A stretch of DNA of 64,000 nt from Streptomyces sp. NBC_01341 (GTDB taxonomy: Bacteria > Actinomycetota > Actinomycetes > Streptomycetales > Streptomycetaceae), in contig NZ_CP108364.1 of the NCBI RefSeq assembly GCF_035946055.1, forward strand, positions 1,178,001-1,242,000, read 5' to 3'. Shown piece by piece: positions 54,593 to 64,000 of this stretch (position 1 is the first letter of the stretch; every line of letters begins with the position of its first letter). The position numbers and the translations under genes are program-made. Under the pieces are notes generated by a model. The model was not told where the DNA came from and ran no database searches. It worked only from the letters and a program-made list of their open reading frames with translations.

Positions 54593-55378
54593 CTACGAGG
54601 TCCATGCGCCGCTGAACAGTGCCAATTCCAGTAGGTCGGGAGCGAGCGGCCAGTGCGTGGACCCGGCCAGCTGCCCGGTGGCACCGTGTGCCCATCTCAG
54701 GTAGACGTCGTAGCGGTGCGGGGTCCACCCGCCGTCGCTCCACAGCCAGGCAGCGAGCCTCGCGGGTTCCTCGAGCCCGATCTCCTCCCCCAGTCGTGTC
54801 GTGTACGCGCGCAGAACACGAGCTATGCGCTGGTCGAGAATGAGCGGGCGCGGCCCCGGCGCATCCACTACGGCGCCGCCGGCGAAGTAGAGGAACTTGG
54901 TGAAGAACGCCGGTCCAAGGCCTGCGATCGCGCCGCTCAGCCTGCGGTAGCCCACCACGGCGCCATCGGTCGCCATCAGCGCAATAGCCTGTGCCAGCAC
55001 CGCCTCAACCGGCGCTGGGCGCAGGATTTCACCCAGCCGGTGGGCCCCGTAGCCGATGTCACCCTGTCCCCAGACGTAGCTGGCGACGAGTGTCTCGGTC
55101 CAGCTCGCCGTTGCTGCCCCAGTCCGGGCCACCGCCAGCACCTGCGCCCGGCTCAGCGAAGTTGGCTTACGTCCGACCTGCTCTGCCAACCCCGAGGGCC
55201 ACGGCCGGATGCCGGCCCAGGACCCCGGGATGTAACGAACGGCGTGCTCGCCGGTCCCGTCCGCGTACGGCGCCCCGTCTCCGGCCAGCCAGGCTCCCAG
55301 CTTTCCCATTGCATCCGAAGGAAGCGGACGCTCGAGCATCCGCGCGTCCAGTTCCCCGGCGCCCTCTCGCCACTCCAT
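54593..55378 (-). CDS. OGG-fold (8-oxoguanine DNA glycosylase-like) protein
   Basis: The 261-aa helical protein begins MEWREGAGELDARMLERPLP. The segments LSGAIAGLGPAFFTKFLYFA and PLILDQRIARVLRAYT resemble the helix-hairpin-helix core of the OGG fold: GLGPAFFTKFLYF in place of the hairpin, and an Asp in LILDQRI at the position of the catalytic/structural Asp. The catalytic Lys of true OGG enzymes is not evident as an isolated residue in a canonical hairpin; Lys in FFTKFLYF is the best candidate. AAAGGAGAGG precedes the ATG. Members often sit in defence or mobile islands; activity is unproven. Confidence 0.72.
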   Translation of the reverse strand: MEWREGAGELDARMLERPLPSDAMGKLGAWLAGDGAPYADGTGEHAVRYIPGSWAGIRPWPSGLAEQVGRKPTSLSRAQVLAVARTGAATASWTETLVASYVWGQGDIGYGAHRLGEILRPAPVEAVLAQAIALMATDGAVVGYRRLSGAIAGLGPAFFTKFLYFAGGAVVDAPGPRPLILDQRIARVLRAYTTRLGEEIGLEEPARLAAWLWSDGGWTPHRYDVYLRWAHGATGQLAGSTHWPLAPDLLELALFSGAWTS

Positions 55379-55484
55379 CCAAAGCCTCTCCTTTGGTTCC
55401 ACCAGTTCGCCGCGACGGCAGGCATCACCAGTTCGTGACGGATTCTGTCCCGCGGAAGTGCACCCCGCACGAGTGCGGGACGGT

Positions 55485-56143
55485 TCAGCTGGTCTTGCGG
55501 GCGGAAAGTGGGCTGGAACCAGGTACGGCCCGGATACCGGGAACGTTGTCGGCGCGAAGTCTGGCGGCCACAGCACCGGGGCTGATCTCACCGGCCTGGT
55601 ACTGACTCGTGGGGACCGCCGTTATCTGCGACACCGTCAGAACGCTTCCGGCCGGCAGCCCGGAGAAGGCCTCTCGCATGTGGCGGGCGACATCGCGCCG
55701 GGACCGGGGCATCTGAACCGTCGCCGGCCTACCGACGGGAGTAGCCTCCCGCTCCCTCAGCCGGGGTGCCGGGAAGCCTGCAACTGAGAAGGTGGGCGCG
55801 CCTCCATCCGGGCGTTGCCAGCGCCGGGAGAACGCCTCGGACAGATGGTCAGCCCGGGCCAGGATGGTCTCCTCGTCCCACTGAGCAGGCAGGGAACGGT
55901 TCAACGAAAGTGCACTGTGCACGAGGATGTCGTTCCTCTTGCGCTCCCAGGGACCGTTGGAAACCGATGTGTTCAGTCTGCCGGTGAGCAGAGTCAGGTT
56001 TCCTACGGTGTGGAGGAGGGACTGCCTGCGCTCATGAGCCTCGACGCTTCCGCGGCCTCCGCCGTCGGAAAGCGGCCAGTGTTCCTCCCAGGCCTGCGGC
56101 AGTAGGTGCTCGTCCTTTGCCTTCCCTCGATCCGGCTCGGGTT
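55485..56143 (-). pseudogene. DUF262/DUF1524 (GmrSD-like HNH nuclease) C-terminal fragment
   Basis: About 219 codons stay open after an in-frame TAA near 56145. They encode the DUF1524 HNH half of GmrSD/DUF262 proteins: DEHLLPQAWEEHWPLSDGG (the H-x-L-P-Q motif), LLHTVGNLTLLTGRLNTSVS, NGPWERKRNDILVHSALSLN and a helical tail. The N-terminal DUF262 ParB-like domain is missing and there is no good start, so this is a truncated defence gene. An internal GTG at 55922 gives a 145-aa frame that is probably not the real gene. Confidence 0.7.
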
Positions 56144-57280: not shown

Positions 57281-57720
57281 AAAGTGCCTCTGACCAGCAA
57301 GAATGAGGATTATCGTGGTCCTTGTTCCTGCTCCAGCCGGAGGCACTTCTCAGGTAAAGAAGCGTATCGGGTCGTACCCGCGTGTCCGCATCGAGGGTGG
57401 CGGCCGGGCAGTGGTCGCGCAGGCCGGGGGCGTGCTGCTGGTCGAGACGGTCCGCAAGGCCGGCTTGGACACCGCGATATCAGCGTCGCTGGCGCCGTGG
57501 CGGAAGGCTCGGGCGGTGCACGATCCGGGCAAGATCCTGCTGGACGTGGCCTTGGCGGTCGCGCTGGGCGGGGACTGTCTCGCGGATGTCGCCATGCTGC
57601 GGGCCGGGCTGTCCGTGTTCGGGTCGGTGGCCTCCGACCCGACCGTCTCCCGCCTTATCGACACCCTCGCGGCCTCCGGGGAGAAGGCCCTGCGGGCGCA
57701 GCAGCCTACAGAGATACCCG
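57281..57720 (+). mobile_element. Truncated IS1380-family insertion sequence
   Basis: The left end begins around AAAGTGCCTCTGACC. AGTGCCTC at 57283-57290 recurs as GAGGCACT at 57340-57347 just before the transposase coding region. Only the first third of the element remains; the right end and its terminal repeat are missing, and the sequence passes into a decayed Rhs tip at about 57716-57743. Confidence 0.7.
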
Positions 57721-57746
57721 ACCAAGGATCCGAGACGAGCCACTAG
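57303..57746 (+). pseudogene. IS1380-family transposase, N-terminal fragment
   Basis: The 147-aa frame shows the IS1380 N-terminus: GVLLVETVRKAGLDTAISAS, the helical region HDPGKILLDVALAVALGGDC and LADVAMLRAGLSVFGSVASD. It then breaks after LIDTLAASGEKALRA, where intact enzymes (about 450-470 aa) go on to the DDE domain. The last 14 codons are foreign. It cannot be active. Confidence 0.8.
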
Positions 57747-58065
57747 CTTTCGACCTGTACAGTCGCATGCTTGTTGAAGCGAATTCGCAGACCGTAGTAA
57801 TGCCATGGGAACTTCAGACGTCCGGTCAGGTCGAGTTCGTTCACGGGGGCGCTCGGGTAGGTGTAGGCGTCGGAGTTGTCGCCGTCGACGGGTCGGTGGA
57901 CACGAAGCGACCAGTCGCTGGGGTGCAGAGACGGACTCCCAGAGGACGGCGCCGCCGAGAGTATTGGATGGCCGCTGGTACCGGCCGAGCCATCCGCGGG
58001 TGCAACTGCCGAGGAATCCAGCGTGTTGCCGTATTCGTCGAAGGTGCTGTCGCCGGAGACCAGCG
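57743..58065 (-). pseudogene. Orphan Rhs core/tip fragment with frameshifts
   Basis: Rhs-core pieces are split over three frames: STFDEYGNTLDSS, then GWLGRYQRPSNTLGG, then LGVRLCTPATGRFVSTDP, then back to DGDNSDAYTYPSAPVNELDL and TGRLKFPWHYYGLRIRF up to a stop. These correspond one-to-one to FDEYGNTL ... GVRLYDPTTGRF ... GGNANAYDYC ... VNCYDLDGRF of the large Rhs gene 0.7 kb away. At least two indels are needed. It is a displaced older tip downstream of the active toxin-immunity pair, as in other Rhs/CDI loci. Its own short tip is not recognised as a toxin. Confidence 0.75.
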
Positions 58066-58088
58066 CCACGATGTCTCCTCTTAGGAGT

Positions 58089-58118
58089 CGGGTGGGGCCC
58101 TTCGGAGGGCCCCACCCG
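58089..58118. terminator. Strong hairpin terminator downstream of the immunity gene
   Basis: CGGGTGGGGCCCT and AGGGCCCCACCCG form a perfect 13-bp stem with a TCGG tetraloop, 45 bp after the stop of the immunity candidate (minus-strand direction). Confidence 0.8.
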
Positions 58119-58163
58119 GCGGCGAGAAGGGGCTTGTAGGACATCCCCTTCATCTATGTGGTT

Positions 58164-58469
58164 CTATTCTTGAATGGCTTCCCACTCTTTTGCGTACCGT
58201 TCGGCGAGGAGCCGCAGTTCGAATATTGTCGGACTCATGTCCGTTTTCGATGAGAGGTAGCTACGCAAGTTCTGGCCTGAGCGGCGGGCCTCAATGACGT
58301 GTGCCAGCACGTCGTCGTCCTCTGCGTACATTGCGTACTCGGGCCAGAGGAGTCCGAGGAACGTGTGATAATCCACACCGTCATCCCCGGATTCATCCCA
58401 CTCATCCCGATAGGTGTCGATGTCATCGAGTGATGCTCGGCCATTCAGGACGTCCTCAACGAATGTCAT
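58164..58469 (-). CDS. Probable immunity protein to the Rhs E3-type toxin
   Basis: The 101-aa, strongly acidic protein begins MTFVEDVLNGRASLDDIDTY and has the segment DYHTFLGLLWPEYAMYAEDD and a helical end. Its ATG overlaps the Rhs stop (ATGA), so it is made directly with the toxin tip, the standard place for a cognate immunity gene. It does not resemble the ImmE3 colicin immunity family, which is a shorter beta-rich protein. An acidic protein suits binding of the basic RNase tip. The binding partner is inferred from position. Confidence 0.75.
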   Translation of the reverse strand: MTFVEDVLNGRASLDDIDTYRDEWDESGDDGVDYHTFLGLLWPEYAMYAEDDDVLAHVIEARRSGQNLRSYLSSKTDMSPTIFELRLLAERYAKEWEAIQE

Positions 58470-61400
58470 GGCTTGATCTTCCGGCCCTTCACTGGCGGCT
58501 TGTAGATGTGTCCCCCGTTGGGATCTGCGCTCCCGAGGTGCTTACCGTTCTTGTCGTATACCTCGATATCACCGTGGGTGTAGTCCCATTCGAAGTACCG
58601 CTTCTTCGACCCTGATTTACCGTTGCTCTTGGTCTTGCCCTTGTGTGGGGTCAGCTTCTTCCAGTACGGGGAGTTCGAAGGAGTGGACTTCGCAGTGTGA
58701 TGGTTATAGTGGGCGATCCACACACCCGCCTGGTAGACACCGTAGGTCAGGATACCCAGCGCGATCAGACCGGCGACGATCCAGCCAATGGGATTCCACC
58801 AGTCGGCCACGGCGAAGAATCCGAGTGCCGCTACCGCCGCGAATCGGCCGTCGAGGTCATAGCAGTTGACGGCATCCGCCGTGCAGTAGTCGTAGGCGTT
58901 CGCGTTTCCACCGTAGATGGAGTCGACCTGGAGGAAGCGGCCAGTCGTCGGGTCGTACAGGCGGACGCCCATGAGGGTGTAGCCGCTGATTGTGCCAGAC
59001 GACCGTTGGTAGGAGCCGAAGGCACCATAGGTGGCGTCCTCCGTGTCGTCGAGCGTGTTGCCGTACTCGTCAAAGTGCTGGACTGTGCTGGCGACGCTGG
59101 TGTCCAGCGGCTGCTGGACCGTAATGTCGCCGTGGATGTTGGCGAGTTGGAGGACGGTGTCGCCGGCGTCCGTCGTTGTGGCGGCCAGGCCGCCGGTCAG
59201 GTCGGTGACGTTGCGGATGGTGGTGCTGCTGCCCGTCTTGGCCCAGGTGGGGCTGTCCGACGAGTCGCCGTAGTGGTTGGTCGTCGTGGTGTTGGTCGTC
59301 CAGGTGCTGCCGGACTGGGTCTGGGCGGTCTGGACGGCGAGACGTCCGGCGGCGTCCAGGGCCCAGGTGTTGCGGCTGGTGCCGACGGTCTCGGTGGCGA
59401 CCAGGTCGTTGGTGAAGTACGACAGGGTTGTGGCTCCGCTGGTGGTGGTGCGGCCGAAGGCGTCGTAGACGTAGCCGGCGTTCACCAGTCGGTCGGCGCT
59501 GTCGTAGGCGTACGACGTGGTCGCCGTGGTGGTGTCGACGGTGCTGCTGTCGCAGTCATCCGAACTGGCGTTCAACGACTTGCGGTTGCTGTTCACGTCG
59601 AAGGTGTAGGCGCGGGTGGTGCAGCCGGCGGTGGACGAGTTAATAGCCTGAGTGAGGTGGCCGGCGCTGTCGTAGGTGTAGTCGGACTGCGTGGTCGAAC
59701 CGTCGGTCTGGGTATGGCCGGCCTGCTGGCCGTGCACCGTGTATCCGGCGGCGTCGGAGGCGACGGTGGTGCCGTCCGCCGTGACGTACGTACGGTTGGT
59801 CTCCTGGCCGGTGGTGTCACTGGTGACGGCCAGGGTGTAGCCGCCGGGCAGGGTCTCGGACGTGAGCGTGCCGTCGGCGTCGTACGTGCCCGTGAAGGTG
59901 CCGGCCACCGAGTCGGTCAGCGTCGTCACGTTGCCTGTGGCGCCATAGGCGTACGTCCTGGCGGACGGTACCGAGTCGGTGGTCTTCACCGGCCGGTCGA
60001 GGATGTCGTAGGACGTGATCGTGGTGTTGCCCGCGCCGTCGTTGTATTCCGTCCGACGTCCCAGGTCGTCGTAGGTGTAGGCGATGGTCAGACCGTTCGA
60101 GGTCTGGGTGGCCGTCTGGCCGTTGTCCTCGTCGTACGTGACCGTCGTGTCCGGGGTGCCCGTGCCGATGCCGCCGGTCATTGCGGTCCTGGTGACGCGG
60201 CCCGCGCCGTCGGTGGTGTTGGTGGTGGTGCGGGTCACGCTGTTGGCGGTCTCGGCCTTGGTGGCGAGCTGGCCCCAGCGGTCGTAGGTGTAGACGGTGG
60301 TGACGGCCTCCGCCGGGTTGGTGCCGCCGCCCGTGATGGTGGCCGCAGGCGCCGTCCTGCAGAGCAGTCCGGTCGAGATGGCGGAGACACAGGTGCCGGT
60401 GCCGGAGGCCGTGTAATAGGTGTAGTTCACGGTGTTTGCGTCCGAGCCAGTCGAGCCGGCTGTGCGGGTGGTGGACGCCCGCCCGGTGCTGTCGTACGTC
60501 GTCATGATGCCGGTGGTGTCAGCGCCGCTGCTGGCCTTCTCCTGGCCGGTCGACCAGTCGTAGGTGGTGGTCACCGCACGAGTGTCGGCGTCGTTCACGT
60601 ATCCCGCGACGGCGGCGCCGGTCGCCGTGGAGGTGACCAGGCCGGAGACCTTAGCGCCGCTGGGCCGGTTCTCGTCGTAGCTGTAGGCGGTGTGGGTGTG
60701 TGCCGGGGTCACTGTACCGGGGGCCATCGTGGACTCCGCGGTGCTACCGGTGAGTTCCTTGGTGAGGGTGACCTCGTGCAGGGGTCCGTACTCGTCCACG
60801 AGCTTCTGACCGTCGGCTGAGTACCGGGAGACGGTGGCCAACTGCCGGGCACGGTCCGCAGTGGACAGGTCGGCTAGGCCGAGTGCCGCCAGTTTGCCGG
60901 ATGCTCCCGTGCTGGTGCCGAGGGCCAGCTCCCGGTTGGTGGCTGCCAGGTCGATGACCTGGTTGCCGTAGTCGTCGTACCCGGTGGTGGTGAGCGAGCC
61001 GCCGGGGTTCGCGGTGTTGGTCTCCTCGCCGTTCGCGTCGATGTAGGTGATGACGGCCCGGTCGTACGAGGACGACGTCAGGCCGCTGCCGGTGTTGCCC
61101 GGAGGGACGCTGTCGGCCGGGAAGACGGCGGTCGCGTCGGTAGGTGCCTCGTCCTGCGCCCAGGCCGCCACGGTGGTGGCGTCCATCTGGTGCGGGGCGG
61201 TCGAACCGGAGAGCGGCACGTCGTAGACGACGGTGGTGGCCGCCGTACCGGACGTGGTGCTCGCGGAGCCAACGACGAGTGCCGGGCGGGAGACCTTGAG
61301 CAGCATGCCCGCGCCCGAGGTCAGCGCGGAGCCGGCCTTGCCGTATTTGAACGTCCAGGGGAGTTCACCGGGTTCGGTGAGGGTGGCGACGCGACCGTCG

Positions 61401-63308
61401 GTGTCGTAGGTGTACGCCGTCTTCAGCGGGGTGCTGATTCGCGGGTCCCAGTCCTGCGCAAGCCGGCCGGAGCTGTCGTAGGTGTAGGACTCGACGGTCT
61501 CGGCGGTCGCGGCGGAGGCGCCGGGGCCGGTGGCCCACAGCTTGAGCGCCTTCACTTGGCCCGTGTAGTCGCCGACCGCGCCGGATGTGGCGGTGGTGGA
61601 GGTCGAGTAGATAAACTCCAGGACGCGGCAGCCCTTGGTGGCCGGGGTGGCCTGGCAGGTCGCGGGAGTGACCGCCGCGGTCGGGGAGATCACGTACTTC
61701 GGACGGGCCAGCGTCGAGCCGCCGACTGTGACGGTCTCCGAGACGGTGGTGAGCGTGGTGTCATCGACTGCCGAGGCCGAGGAGGCTAGCGTCCAGGTGG
61801 CCACACCGGTCGCGGCCTTGGCGAACACCGTGGCGTTCGCGTCGGTGTCGGTCAGGGTGAACGTCGACCCGCTGACCGCGCCCGTCAGAGTCAGTTCCTC
61901 GGCCCCTGGCTGAGGCGCCCAGCTGCCGTCCGAGTTCAAAGTGAAGGCGATCGAGCTGCCGTCGCCGGACAGGAGCTCCACCGAAGTGGCGGAGGTCCTG
62001 CGGATCTCTGTGTACCCGCTCGCCTCACCGGCGACGGTGGAGGTCCAACCAGGGCCGAAGATCTGCGCCTGGCCCTCGGTGTCTGTGTCGTTGGCACGCG
62101 AGGAGTACGTCCGCACTACGCTCGCCTCGAAGGCAGTCGCGTCCGTGGCCGACAGTGTGAAGTCACCGGTGAGCTGGTTGACCGAACCCGGGCCGACCTG
62201 GGCGCCGGGGGCGGTGCCCGCGTCCCGGTCGAGGGTGACGTCGGTGGTCTGTGAGTGGCCTGTTGTGGTGCCGTCCGTGAACGCGGCGCGCAGTTCGATG
62301 ACGCCGTCCTCGGACAGCGAGTTGACGGTGTTCCAGACCAGTTTGGTGGCGGTGCCGCTGGTGACGGCGACCGGCCAGGCGGAGACCACCGCGCCGGAGG
62401 CAGTGACGTCGGTGGCTGGCACGATATGCCAGGCGTCGGTCTCGCCGCGCCGGTACTGCCAGGTCACCCCGGTGTAGGAGGTGAGTCCCTTCGCCGACAA
62501 TGTGAGGCGGCGGGCGGTGGTGTCGCCGTCGGCCGGGGAAAGGATCGCTGCCCCGTCGGCGCCGACCCCGAAGGCGTAAGAGGTAGTTGCCGTCGACAGG
62601 TTGCCGCCGGAGTCGATGGTCCGCGCGTACAGCGTGTGCCAGCCGTCGGCCGGGTTGATGCTGACCGTCTGCGCGTCGCCGCCGTTCCCGTTGCTGATGT
62701 CCAGCTTCTTATTCGGCAGGGAAGAGTTGTCCAGGCCCCACTGGAATCCGGCACCGTCCGTGGAGGTCGTGTCAAGGGTGCAGGACACGGCCGCACTCGC
62801 CTTGGCCGTCCAGCCGTTCTGCTCGTACGTGTCGCAGGTGACCGTCGGGGCGGCGGGTAGGCCGGTGTTCATCACGAACGTGGAGTAGCCGGTCCAGGAG
62901 CCGTAGTCGGCGCCGTCATAGGCGCGGACGCGATAGCGCAGGTGGGTGCCTGCTGGGAAGGAGCTCGCCGGTGGAATCGTCAGCTTGGCCGTCGAACCGG
63001 AGGAGACCGAGGAGGATACAGCCGTGTAGGAGTACGTGGTGTCCGCGTAGGCTGGGTCCGCTGTGATCTCGAACTGACCCTTGGTACTAGAACCGTCCGG
63101 GTCGATGACGTTCGCCGACAACGTCGGGGTGAGCGAGGTGACGTACCGGGAGCCGTTGTAGGCGTTGACCTGTGACGGCGCGATCGTCGCCGCACTCGGC
63201 TTCGCGGGGTAGGAGTTGTAGGTGACAGTGAGTTTCGGCGCGTAGCCGGATGTGGGGTAGTTGGCCGAGCGGACGCGCGGAGTGGCCGAACTGGAGTCTG
63301 GGCAGGTG
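58466..63308 (-). CDS. Rhs polymorphic toxin with C-terminal colicin E3-type 16S rRNase domain (5' end lost)
   Basis: About 1,600 residues remain. They begin with fibronectin-like segments (YAPKLTVTYNSYPAKPSAAT), followed by a long series of YD/Rhs repeats that build the cocoon. The core end is VRLYDPTTGRFLQVDSIYGG...NCYDLDGRF. A hydrophobic stretch (WNPIGWIVAGLIALGILTYG) and a basic linker lead to the tip KRYFEWDYTHGDIEVYDKNG ending in VKGRKIKP. The tip aligns with the colicin E3 cytotoxic domain. Asp (codon 58583-58585), His (58574-58576), Glu (58562-58564) and Arg (58481-58483) match D510, H513, E517 and R545 with identical spacing. The frame stays open to 63565, but that extra part is antisense to a transposase, so the original N-terminus (export region) is gone. 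Confidence 0.85.
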
Positions 63309-64000
63309 TTGTTGGGGCGAGTTCGTCGTCCTGGTGGGGGCCGGAAGAGGGCAGCGGACCTTGATCCCGGGCTGCGGCCGGCTTTGCTTGGGTTGGTCGA
63401 GCCCGACGAGCGGGGCGACCCGATGTCGCCGCTGCGGTGGACGACGAAGTCGACCCGGAAGCTGGCAGCGGAGCTGACCCGGCAGGGCCATCGGGTCTCC
63501 GCCGACACGGTCGCCGGCCTGCTGCGGGAGGAAGGCTTCAGTCTGCAGGCCAACGCCAAGACCATCGAGGGTGCTCAGCACCCCGACAGGGATGCCCAGT
63601 TCCGCTACCTCAACGAGCGGGCACGAGACCACAGGGACGCCGGTGACCCGGTGATCAGTGTGGACAGCAAGAAGAAGGAACTGATCGGCGACTACAAGAA
63701 CGCCGGGCACGAATGGCAGCCCGCAGGGCAACCCGTCAGGGTCAAGACCCACGACTTCCCAGGCCAGGCCGAGAAGGCGATTCCGTACGGGATCTATGAC
63801 ATGGCAGCGAACACCGGCTGGGTCAGCATCGGCACCGATCACGACACTGCTGCGTTCGCCGTCGCCTCGATCCGACGCTGGTGGCAGGCTCGCGGCCGAC
63901 ACGACTATGCCCGTGCCCGCCGGCTGCTGATCACCGCTGACGGCGGGGGCTCCAACGGCTACCGCACCCGCGGCTGGAAGGTCCACCTCGCCGACCTCGC
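63309..64000 (+). mobile_element. ISAzo13-family transposase, 5' truncated and running off the window
   Basis: An uninterrupted frame to the window end encodes GRVRRPGGGRKRAADLDPGL, SPLRWTTKSTRKLAAELTRQ and GHRVSADTVAGLLREEGFSL. The DDE-type catalytic core follows: DPVISVDSKKKELIGDYKN (first Asp), YDMAANTGWVSIGTDHDTAA and RRLLITADGGGSNGYRTRG (second Asp). The N-terminal 40-80 residues expected of the family are replaced by the Rhs gene on the other strand at about 63300. The transposase is inserted into, or recombined with, the Rhs 5' part. Confidence 0.85.

Follow-up and report, generated by a model that had tools for sequence, protein, structure and literature searches.

A colicin E3-type RNase tip on a truncated Streptomyces Rhs protein and free-standing operons of the same toxin-partner pair

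The window, by which we mean the whole stretch of 64,000 nucleotides analysed here, derives from Streptomyces sp. NBC_01341 (contig NZ_CP108364.1, positions 1,178,001 to 1,242,000). Towards its end it carries, on the minus strand, a 5'-truncated gene for an Rhs/YD-repeat protein (58466..63292, delimited by tblastn with the intact Streptomyces relative P0014). The C-terminal tip of this protein is a colicin E3-type ribonuclease (RNase) domain that, by analogy, is predicted to cleave 16S ribosomal RNA (rRNA) in the decoding centre. Behind the tip follows the gene for P0002, a candidate immunity protein of 101 amino acids (aa) from an unnamed family (58164..58469, minus strand, defined by its open reading frame (ORF) and the junction sequence). 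Toxin-partner pairs of the same kind were also found free-standing, in small operons of bacteria, phages and viral contigs, where a protease gene mostly lies behind them.

The toxin tip, its partner gene and the broken carrier

The assignment of the tip is based on a match to the Pfam family PF09000 (Cytotoxic), which covers about 57 residues at the C-terminus of the Rhs ORF (residues 1642-1698, 58472..58642, minus strand) with an E-value of 1.2e-10 and 42 bits against a cut-off of 22, rising to 46.6 bits when the C-terminal 146 aa are searched alone. A phmmer search of the last 99 aa against the sequences of the PDB returned five distinct sequences at E<=1, all of them colicin E3 (best E 1.8e-5), and the predicted fold of the tip likewise has its best PDB matches in colicin E3, in line with an E3 fold. 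An earlier note on this DNA had proposed an E3-type RNase tip on an Rhs protein of an actinobacterium and had suggested the profile search and the structure prediction as checks, both of which bear the proposal out.

The four catalytic residues named in that note also align, and their E3 numbering agrees with the 1jch chain. Asp1661 (58583..58585) pairs with E3 Asp510, His1664 (58574..58576) with His513, Glu1668 (58562..58564) with Glu517 and Arg1695 (58481..58483) with Arg545, all codons lying on the minus strand. In an alignment of 30 chosen rows (A6) no variation is seen at the Asp, this His, the Glu or a second His, while the Arg is conserved in at least 90 % of the rows. Once distant Rhs tips are added, the first His is kept in 10 of 11 rows, and it is replaced by Asn in P0020, a distant Rhs tip; the description of the Tox-ColE3 family likewise gives the first His as not universally conserved and the second as conserved (Zhang 2012, PMC3482391). 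The note had further called the alignment gapless and the relative positions identical, which turned out to be too strict, as the alignment has two one-residue gaps, one immediately ahead of the block and one in the Glu-Arg interval, and the Asp-to-Arg spacing is 34 here versus 35 in E3. The closest relatives of the tip that carry a name are from Streptomyces, among them the counterpart in Streptomyces sp. NBC_00576 with 95 % identity.

The start codon of P0002 overlaps the stop codon of the toxin as ATGA (58466-58469). P0002 has no match in Pfam, NCBIfam or PADLOC at E<=1, and those PHROGs that it does match are of unknown function. Its confident structural model (predicted local distance difference test score, pLDDT, 88.7) consists of seven helices without strands, and no trustworthy PDB structure match was found for it. 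It thus does not resemble a cloacin-type immunity protein, having no Pfam family at E<=1 and being predicted as all-helical. The known E3 immunity families Imm-Cloacin, Imm45 and DUF7683 are all unmatched in the same Pfam search (E<=1); we take the first two to be represented by Pfam models. Large-database searches returned ten proteins including P0002 itself, and six of the other nine carry Streptomyces names while three are nameless. The counterpart in Streptomyces sp. NBC_00576 is 89 % identical, and the UniRef name of the homologue P0006 begins with 'CdiI immunity protein domain-containing'. We consider P0002 the likely immunity protein of the E3-type tip. Operons with a member of its family are easily missed in annotation, since none of the Pfam, NCBIfam and PADLOC copies searched includes a model for it.

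Judging from the sequence, the carrier gene is broken: some 342 front codons are gone and the gene abuts a truncated ISAzo13-type element. Residues 348-1952 of P0014 align at 63277..58469 with 86 % identity (tblastn against the locus), and a search of the whole genome, a single contig of 7.41 Mb, extends the match to residues 343-1952, up to window position 63292, while the N-terminal residues 1-342 have no match anywhere in this genome. The ORF called by the software (58466-63565, minus strand, 1,699 aa) reads on into the transposon remnant; the Rhs relatives found are 1,952-2,100 aa long, and the remaining roughly 1,605 Rhs codons are open and stop-free. The ISAzo13-type element lies on the plus strand (63274..64000, with the matched stretch running on beyond the window, to what would be position 64802 on its scale; PF07592, 489.8 bits). 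Two other copies in the genome, 99 % identical, reach about 229 base pairs further on the Rhs side, which is why the element must be truncated here as well, so that both genes lack the ends that face each other.

An RHS repeat-associated core domain (TIGR03696, residues 1499-1573, 58847..59071, minus strand, 39.8 bits against a cut-off of 32.5) directly precedes the variable tip, as is typical of Rhs/YD polymorphic toxins. Their N-terminal trafficking region is missing, given that residues 1-342 of P0014 are unmatched, and the ORF contains RHS-type domains in place of the colicin T or R (translocation or receptor) domains, none of which was found in Pfam at E<=1. Since the front of about 342 codons is lost and the ORF abuts the truncated element, export or delivery by this Rhs copy is unlikely, and it is probably no longer exported. 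The idea of the earlier note, an effector in kin competition or phage defence, is not supported for this copy as a working one, with its first 342 or so residues unmatched in the genome and its ORF entering a truncated transposase element.

Downstream of the partner gene, an Rhs C-terminal remnant was detected on the minus strand by tblastn with P0014 (57743..58282, including an ORF at 57743-58153). Residues 1667-1828 of P0014 align at 58282..57815 with 28 % identity (E 0.001), overlapping the 3' end of the partner gene, and the remnant shares the motif FDEYGNTLD with the Rhs core. No Pfam family was matched by the remnant, which is perhaps part of an older tip displaced by the E3 cassette. 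Beside it lies a DDE transposase fragment (57303-57746, plus strand; PF13701, 67.7 bits, profile positions 3-120 of 435). Further off, at 54593-55591 on the minus strand, the window encodes an 8-oxoguanine DNA glycosylase-like protein (PF21790, 175.7 bits).

Free-standing toxin-partner operons in bacteria and phages

The distribution of the pair was surveyed in a genus sample of 392 genomes, a phylum sample of 396 and a class sample of 394. PF09000 occurs in 13 of the 392 genus genomes. Besides the window, this set includes six long proteins (L022-L027, 120-134 bits), a 100-aa ORF (L028), a fragment (L033) and four genomes with a free-standing pair (L029-L032), in which the domain is an ORF of about 77 aa. 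In these four, the toxin stop overlaps the ATG of a gene for 107-109 aa that is 26-36 % identical to P0002, followed by a gene with an HExxH motif. For two of the long E3-type proteins (L022 and L023) the gene behind was scanned, and in both it belongs to the DUF7683 family.

A partner profile (A1) was built from P0002, seven relatives and the four free-standing partners of the genus (L029-L032). It matches three of the 396 phylum genomes (G000, the genome of the window, G588 and G671), each time with a PF09000 domain adjoining, while PF09000 itself is present in four. In the class sample, PF09000 was found in 10 of 394 genomes and the partner is adjacent in seven of them (G000, G588, G671, G882, G980, G1074 and G1082) but not in G291, G857 and G941. 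Within the genus, A1 matches eight genomes, and the partner is adjacent to a toxin in five, all of which had been used to build A1; the cases independent of A1 are the genomes G588, G671, G882, G980, G1074 and G1082 together with L053-L056 and L060.

Overall, 29 distinct loci were fetched for a PF09000 or toxin match, excluding duplicates and L057, a near-copy of L056, and the toxin hidden Markov model (HMM) matches 28 of them, L033 being the exception. The partner, counted when A1 matched on the same strand at -5 to +34 bases from the toxin end, is present in 16 of the 29. Twelve of these are free-standing (L029-L032, L048, L049, L053-L056, L060, L074) and four tip-type (the window, L075, L076 and L079, with L076 being a short ORF that groups with the tips). 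The 13 loci lacking the partner are L022-L028, L033, L050, L058, L059, L077 and L078. On a Bosea plasmid (L058, 3803-4419) and a Vibrio plasmid (L059, 2638-3392), other small hypothetical genes come after the E3-type domains, and this RNase may therefore have additional partner families. The free-standing form mostly consists of a toxin of about 77 aa and a partner of about 105 aa with overlapping codons. No helix-turn-helix (HTH) family matched the partners above cut-off, weak sub-threshold matches being all that was seen. A small adjoining two-gene operon, a patchy spread and carriage on mobile elements (12 operons, and Gordonia phages with integrase genes) are as expected for a toxin-antitoxin (TA) system.

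Ten further loci were retrieved by the partner and show no visible toxin (L034, L045-L047, L067, L068, L070-L073). Directly before the orphan partners of L046 and L047 stand apparent remnants of a toxin tail, ending in AKIKV and KGRKIKV, respectively. In L073, a 67-aa protein with the N-terminal motif of the partner stands in front of a 964-aa ORF resembling a tape-measure protein. The partner-like proteins of the viral contigs L067, L068 and L070-L073 could serve as antidotes made by the phage or belong to other toxins.

When the toxin by itself was used as the query against phages and viral contigs, a fecal phage (L055), three Gordonia phage records and the viral contigs L053, L054 and L060 were found; the partner adjoins the toxin in all six phage or viral loci fetched, two of them from Gordonia phages (L056 and L057). 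In the Gordonia phages the pair is flanked by a repressor-type gene and an IrrE-like gene, with a tyrosine integrase nearby, and the depositors of one of these phages labelled its genes HicA-like and HicB-like. In L049 and in L056/L057 the E3 domain is fused to a preceding N-terminal part of about 80 aa that has no Pfam match, and the partner motif likewise belongs to a fusion, with a longer part on its C-terminal side. Apart from its start residue, the L053 toxin is identical to P0138 of Nitrosomonas sp. Nm34, and the pair is therefore not confined to actinobacteria.

Of 674 candidates filtered by length, 646 match a profile built from five free-standing toxins; because this search takes only proteins of about 42-135 aa, the share of E3 domains that is free-standing cannot be read off from it. 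Among the 120 matches listed, 103 are 75-81 aa long, all 120 contain a D..H...E-type motif (loose pattern) and 13 are named 'colicin E3/pyocin S6 family cytotoxin' by NCBI. Named hosts among the matches listed include Micromonospora, Rhodopseudomonas, Nitrosomonas, Paludibacterium, Thiodiazotropha and a Desulfomonilia genome.

An HExxH gene on the same strand and at most 1.5 kilobases behind the partner accompanies 11 of the 12 free-standing loci, L053 being the exception, and none of the four tip-type loci. The Pfam family M78 scored above cut-off in nine of the ten proteins scanned (L029, L030, L032, L048, L049, L054, L055, L060 and L074), a scan from which L031 was left out. Two scores are borderline, L049 with 22.1 against a cut-off of 22 and L056, just under it, with 21.1. 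In PADLOC, capP was the best match of all eight proteases scanned (E 5.5e-16 to 3.5e-31).

Shared history, proposed mechanism and alternatives

The distance matrices of toxin and partner correlate with r 0.761 over 16 pairs, none of 9,999 permutations being as high, and this value includes shared host descent. Maximum-likelihood trees were calculated from 26 toxin and 19 partner rows. Nine tips fall on one side of a branch of the toxin tree (100/99) and seven tip partners on one side of a branch of the partner tree (99/99). The free-standing pair of the fecal phage L055 is divided, its toxin grouping with the tips (98/97) and its partner with the free-standing ones. As the distances correlate and as tips and tip partners group alike, toxin and partner have apparently travelled as a pair, which was probably attached to Rhs-type carriers as a single unit. 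The trees can be explained by a single change between the carrier-borne and the free-standing form.

We favour, with a probability of about 0.7, a reading in which the tip is an E3-type RNase, P0002 its likely immunity protein, the free-standing kin probable protease-gated TA systems and the carrier in the window probably a non-exported relic. The RNase would reach the ribosome and cut 16S rRNA between A1493 and G1494, as we infer from E3 and CdiA-CT, whereupon translation would stop, and the helical partner would bind and block the RNase. In the free-standing operons, stress such as phage infection or DNA damage might lead the M78 protease to remove the partner; that the protease acts on the partner is our guess by analogy. 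The pair would have moved to Rhs-type carriers as one unit, the protease gene not standing behind the four tip-type loci examined. In the window, the carrier would have lost its first 342 or so codons, and the tip-partner pair may survive as a relic or a spare cassette.

Several observations weigh against this reading. The structural model of the tip is only moderate (pLDDT 73, predicted template modelling score 0.64), and its Foldseek E-values to E3 range from 1.3e-3 to 2.7e-3 with none below 1e-3. The partner is missing from 12 of the 28 loci matched by the toxin HMM, including all six long Streptomyces E3-type proteins fetched (L022-L027) and the long proteins L077 and L078, and these eight proteins were left out of the trees as well. 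Conversely, a toxin is missing beside four Streptomyces partners (L034, L045, L046 and L047, with L045 at a contig end), and no E3 toxin was found near the partner-like domain of the viral contigs L067, L068 and L070-L073. The stretch read of L053 contains no protease gene, and the contribution of shared host descent to the distance correlation belongs here too.

Among the alternatives, it appears improbable that the free-standing genes of about 77 aa are fragments of bacteriocins or tips and not TA systems. Free-standing genes and bacteriocins do have PF09000 in common, 13 of the 120 matches listed bear the cytotoxin name, and the short L076 groups with the tips. Yet the free-standing toxins share an N-terminal motif of their own, overlap the partner gene and have a protease gene behind, and 103 of the 120 matches listed fall within 75-81 aa, a figure limited by a search that takes only 42-135 aa. 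The Gordonia phage copies sit between repressor-type and IrrE-like genes, and in the toxin tree the free-standing toxins stand apart from the tips, except for that of phage L055 next to them. With the same low likelihood we regard the domain as a metal-independent RNase of the E3 fold that cuts another RNA, be it transfer RNA, messenger RNA or another rRNA site; an identity to the E3 chains of only 30-35 % over the aligned domain, and Pfam matches of the free-standing forms that begin only at profile positions 24-30 of 80, would be compatible with such a shift.

That the Rhs protein of the window still works as a delivered effector, through an internal start or an unrecognised export route, is quite unlikely. 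The roughly 1,605 open codons at 86 % identity to the relative, a tip and partner so close to their NBC_00576 counterparts and a protein database entry that uses an internal start (P0013, 1,551 aa) would fit this idea, whereas the genome holds no match to the relative's N-terminal residues 1-342, and at the 5' end the truncated transposon is reached. We give very little credence to P0002 being an unrelated neighbour with the immunity gene located elsewhere: it does fall outside every curated Pfam, NCBIfam and PADLOC family, but the stop-start overlap, the adjacency in 16 loci, the distance correlation and the UniRef name of P0006 all speak for a partner of the toxin.

A bolder form of the favoured reading, which we regard as doubtful and put forward tentatively, holds that the operon is a phage-carried, cross-phylum defence of three genes, with a 77-residue E3-type cutter, a helical antitoxin of a new family and a CapP-like M78 protease that single-stranded DNA (ssDNA) would activate upon phage attack or damage and that would release the cutter by destroying the antitoxin. 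The pair would have been fitted once, without the protease, to Rhs, and the window would hold a broken descendant. If this were true, an intracellular suicide module would have been turned into a delivered weapon.

Relation to known systems and biological meaning

The tip resembles the rRNase domains of colicin E3, cloacin DF13 and pyocin S6 in its PF09000 match, the aligned Asp, His, Glu and Arg and the predicted fold, but the window protein has no receptor or translocation domain matched in Pfam, and the free-standing form differs from colicin E3 by its length of mostly 75-81 aa and its own N-terminal motif. Imm-Cloacin, the colicin-type immunity protein, is described as an FKBP-like alpha+beta fold (Zhang 2012, PMC3482391), whereas P0002 is predicted to be all-helical. 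The same work describes E3-type tips as Tox-ColE3 polymorphic toxins with RHS among their carriers and Actinobacteria among their hosts, so that such a tip in Actinobacteria has been tabulated since 2012 and is not new. The immunity proteins given there for Tox-ColE3 are Imm-Cloacin and Imm45, unlike P0002, and in the rows of its table considered here, Tox-RES and Ntox24 are marked as occurring also in TA systems, while Tox-ColE3 is not. The CdiA-CT/CdiI pair of Enterobacter cloacae (PDB 4NTQ) is a further parallel, in which a delivered E3-like 16S rRNase tip is paired with a cognate immunity protein; the cut, in the manner of E3, falls between A1493 and G1494 (PMC9086364).

For the free-standing operon, a close precedent is the three-component TA system with a COG2856 (M78/ImmA/IrrE) protease predicted by Makarova 2009. 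There, too, TA genes come with an HExxH protease, whose proposed substrate is a repressor acting as the antitoxin or in its control (PMC2701414). The toxins in that prediction mostly belong to RelE and PIN, with an Xre repressor as the cleaved partner; the word colicin is absent from the text of that paper. CapP/CapH and PprI/DdrO are related through the protease, given the capP matches behind the free-standing pairs. In the presence of ssDNA, CapP and PprI cut transcription repressors (PMC10904395), whereas the partner described here matches no HTH family above cut-off. RelS-RelI is a 16S rRNA-cutting TA pair of an actinobacterium, but its toxin is RelE/BrnT-like and cuts between C1520 and U1521, not at the E3 site (PMC13284704). 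For the free-standing operon itself, no report was found in the open PMC literature among the matches listed. The tip is thus of an already known kind, and the partner gene and the free-standing operon are the new part.

The ribosome cutter of colicin E3 is a textbook bacteriocin domain. A small and widespread E3-type gene joined to an unnamed partner of its own and a stress-type protease would place ribosome cutting inside the cell, which makes the free-standing operon a candidate for a phage-defence or lysogeny-protecting switch. With it, a defined toxin-partner pair is seen on both sides of the line that separates toxin-antitoxin systems from delivered toxins.

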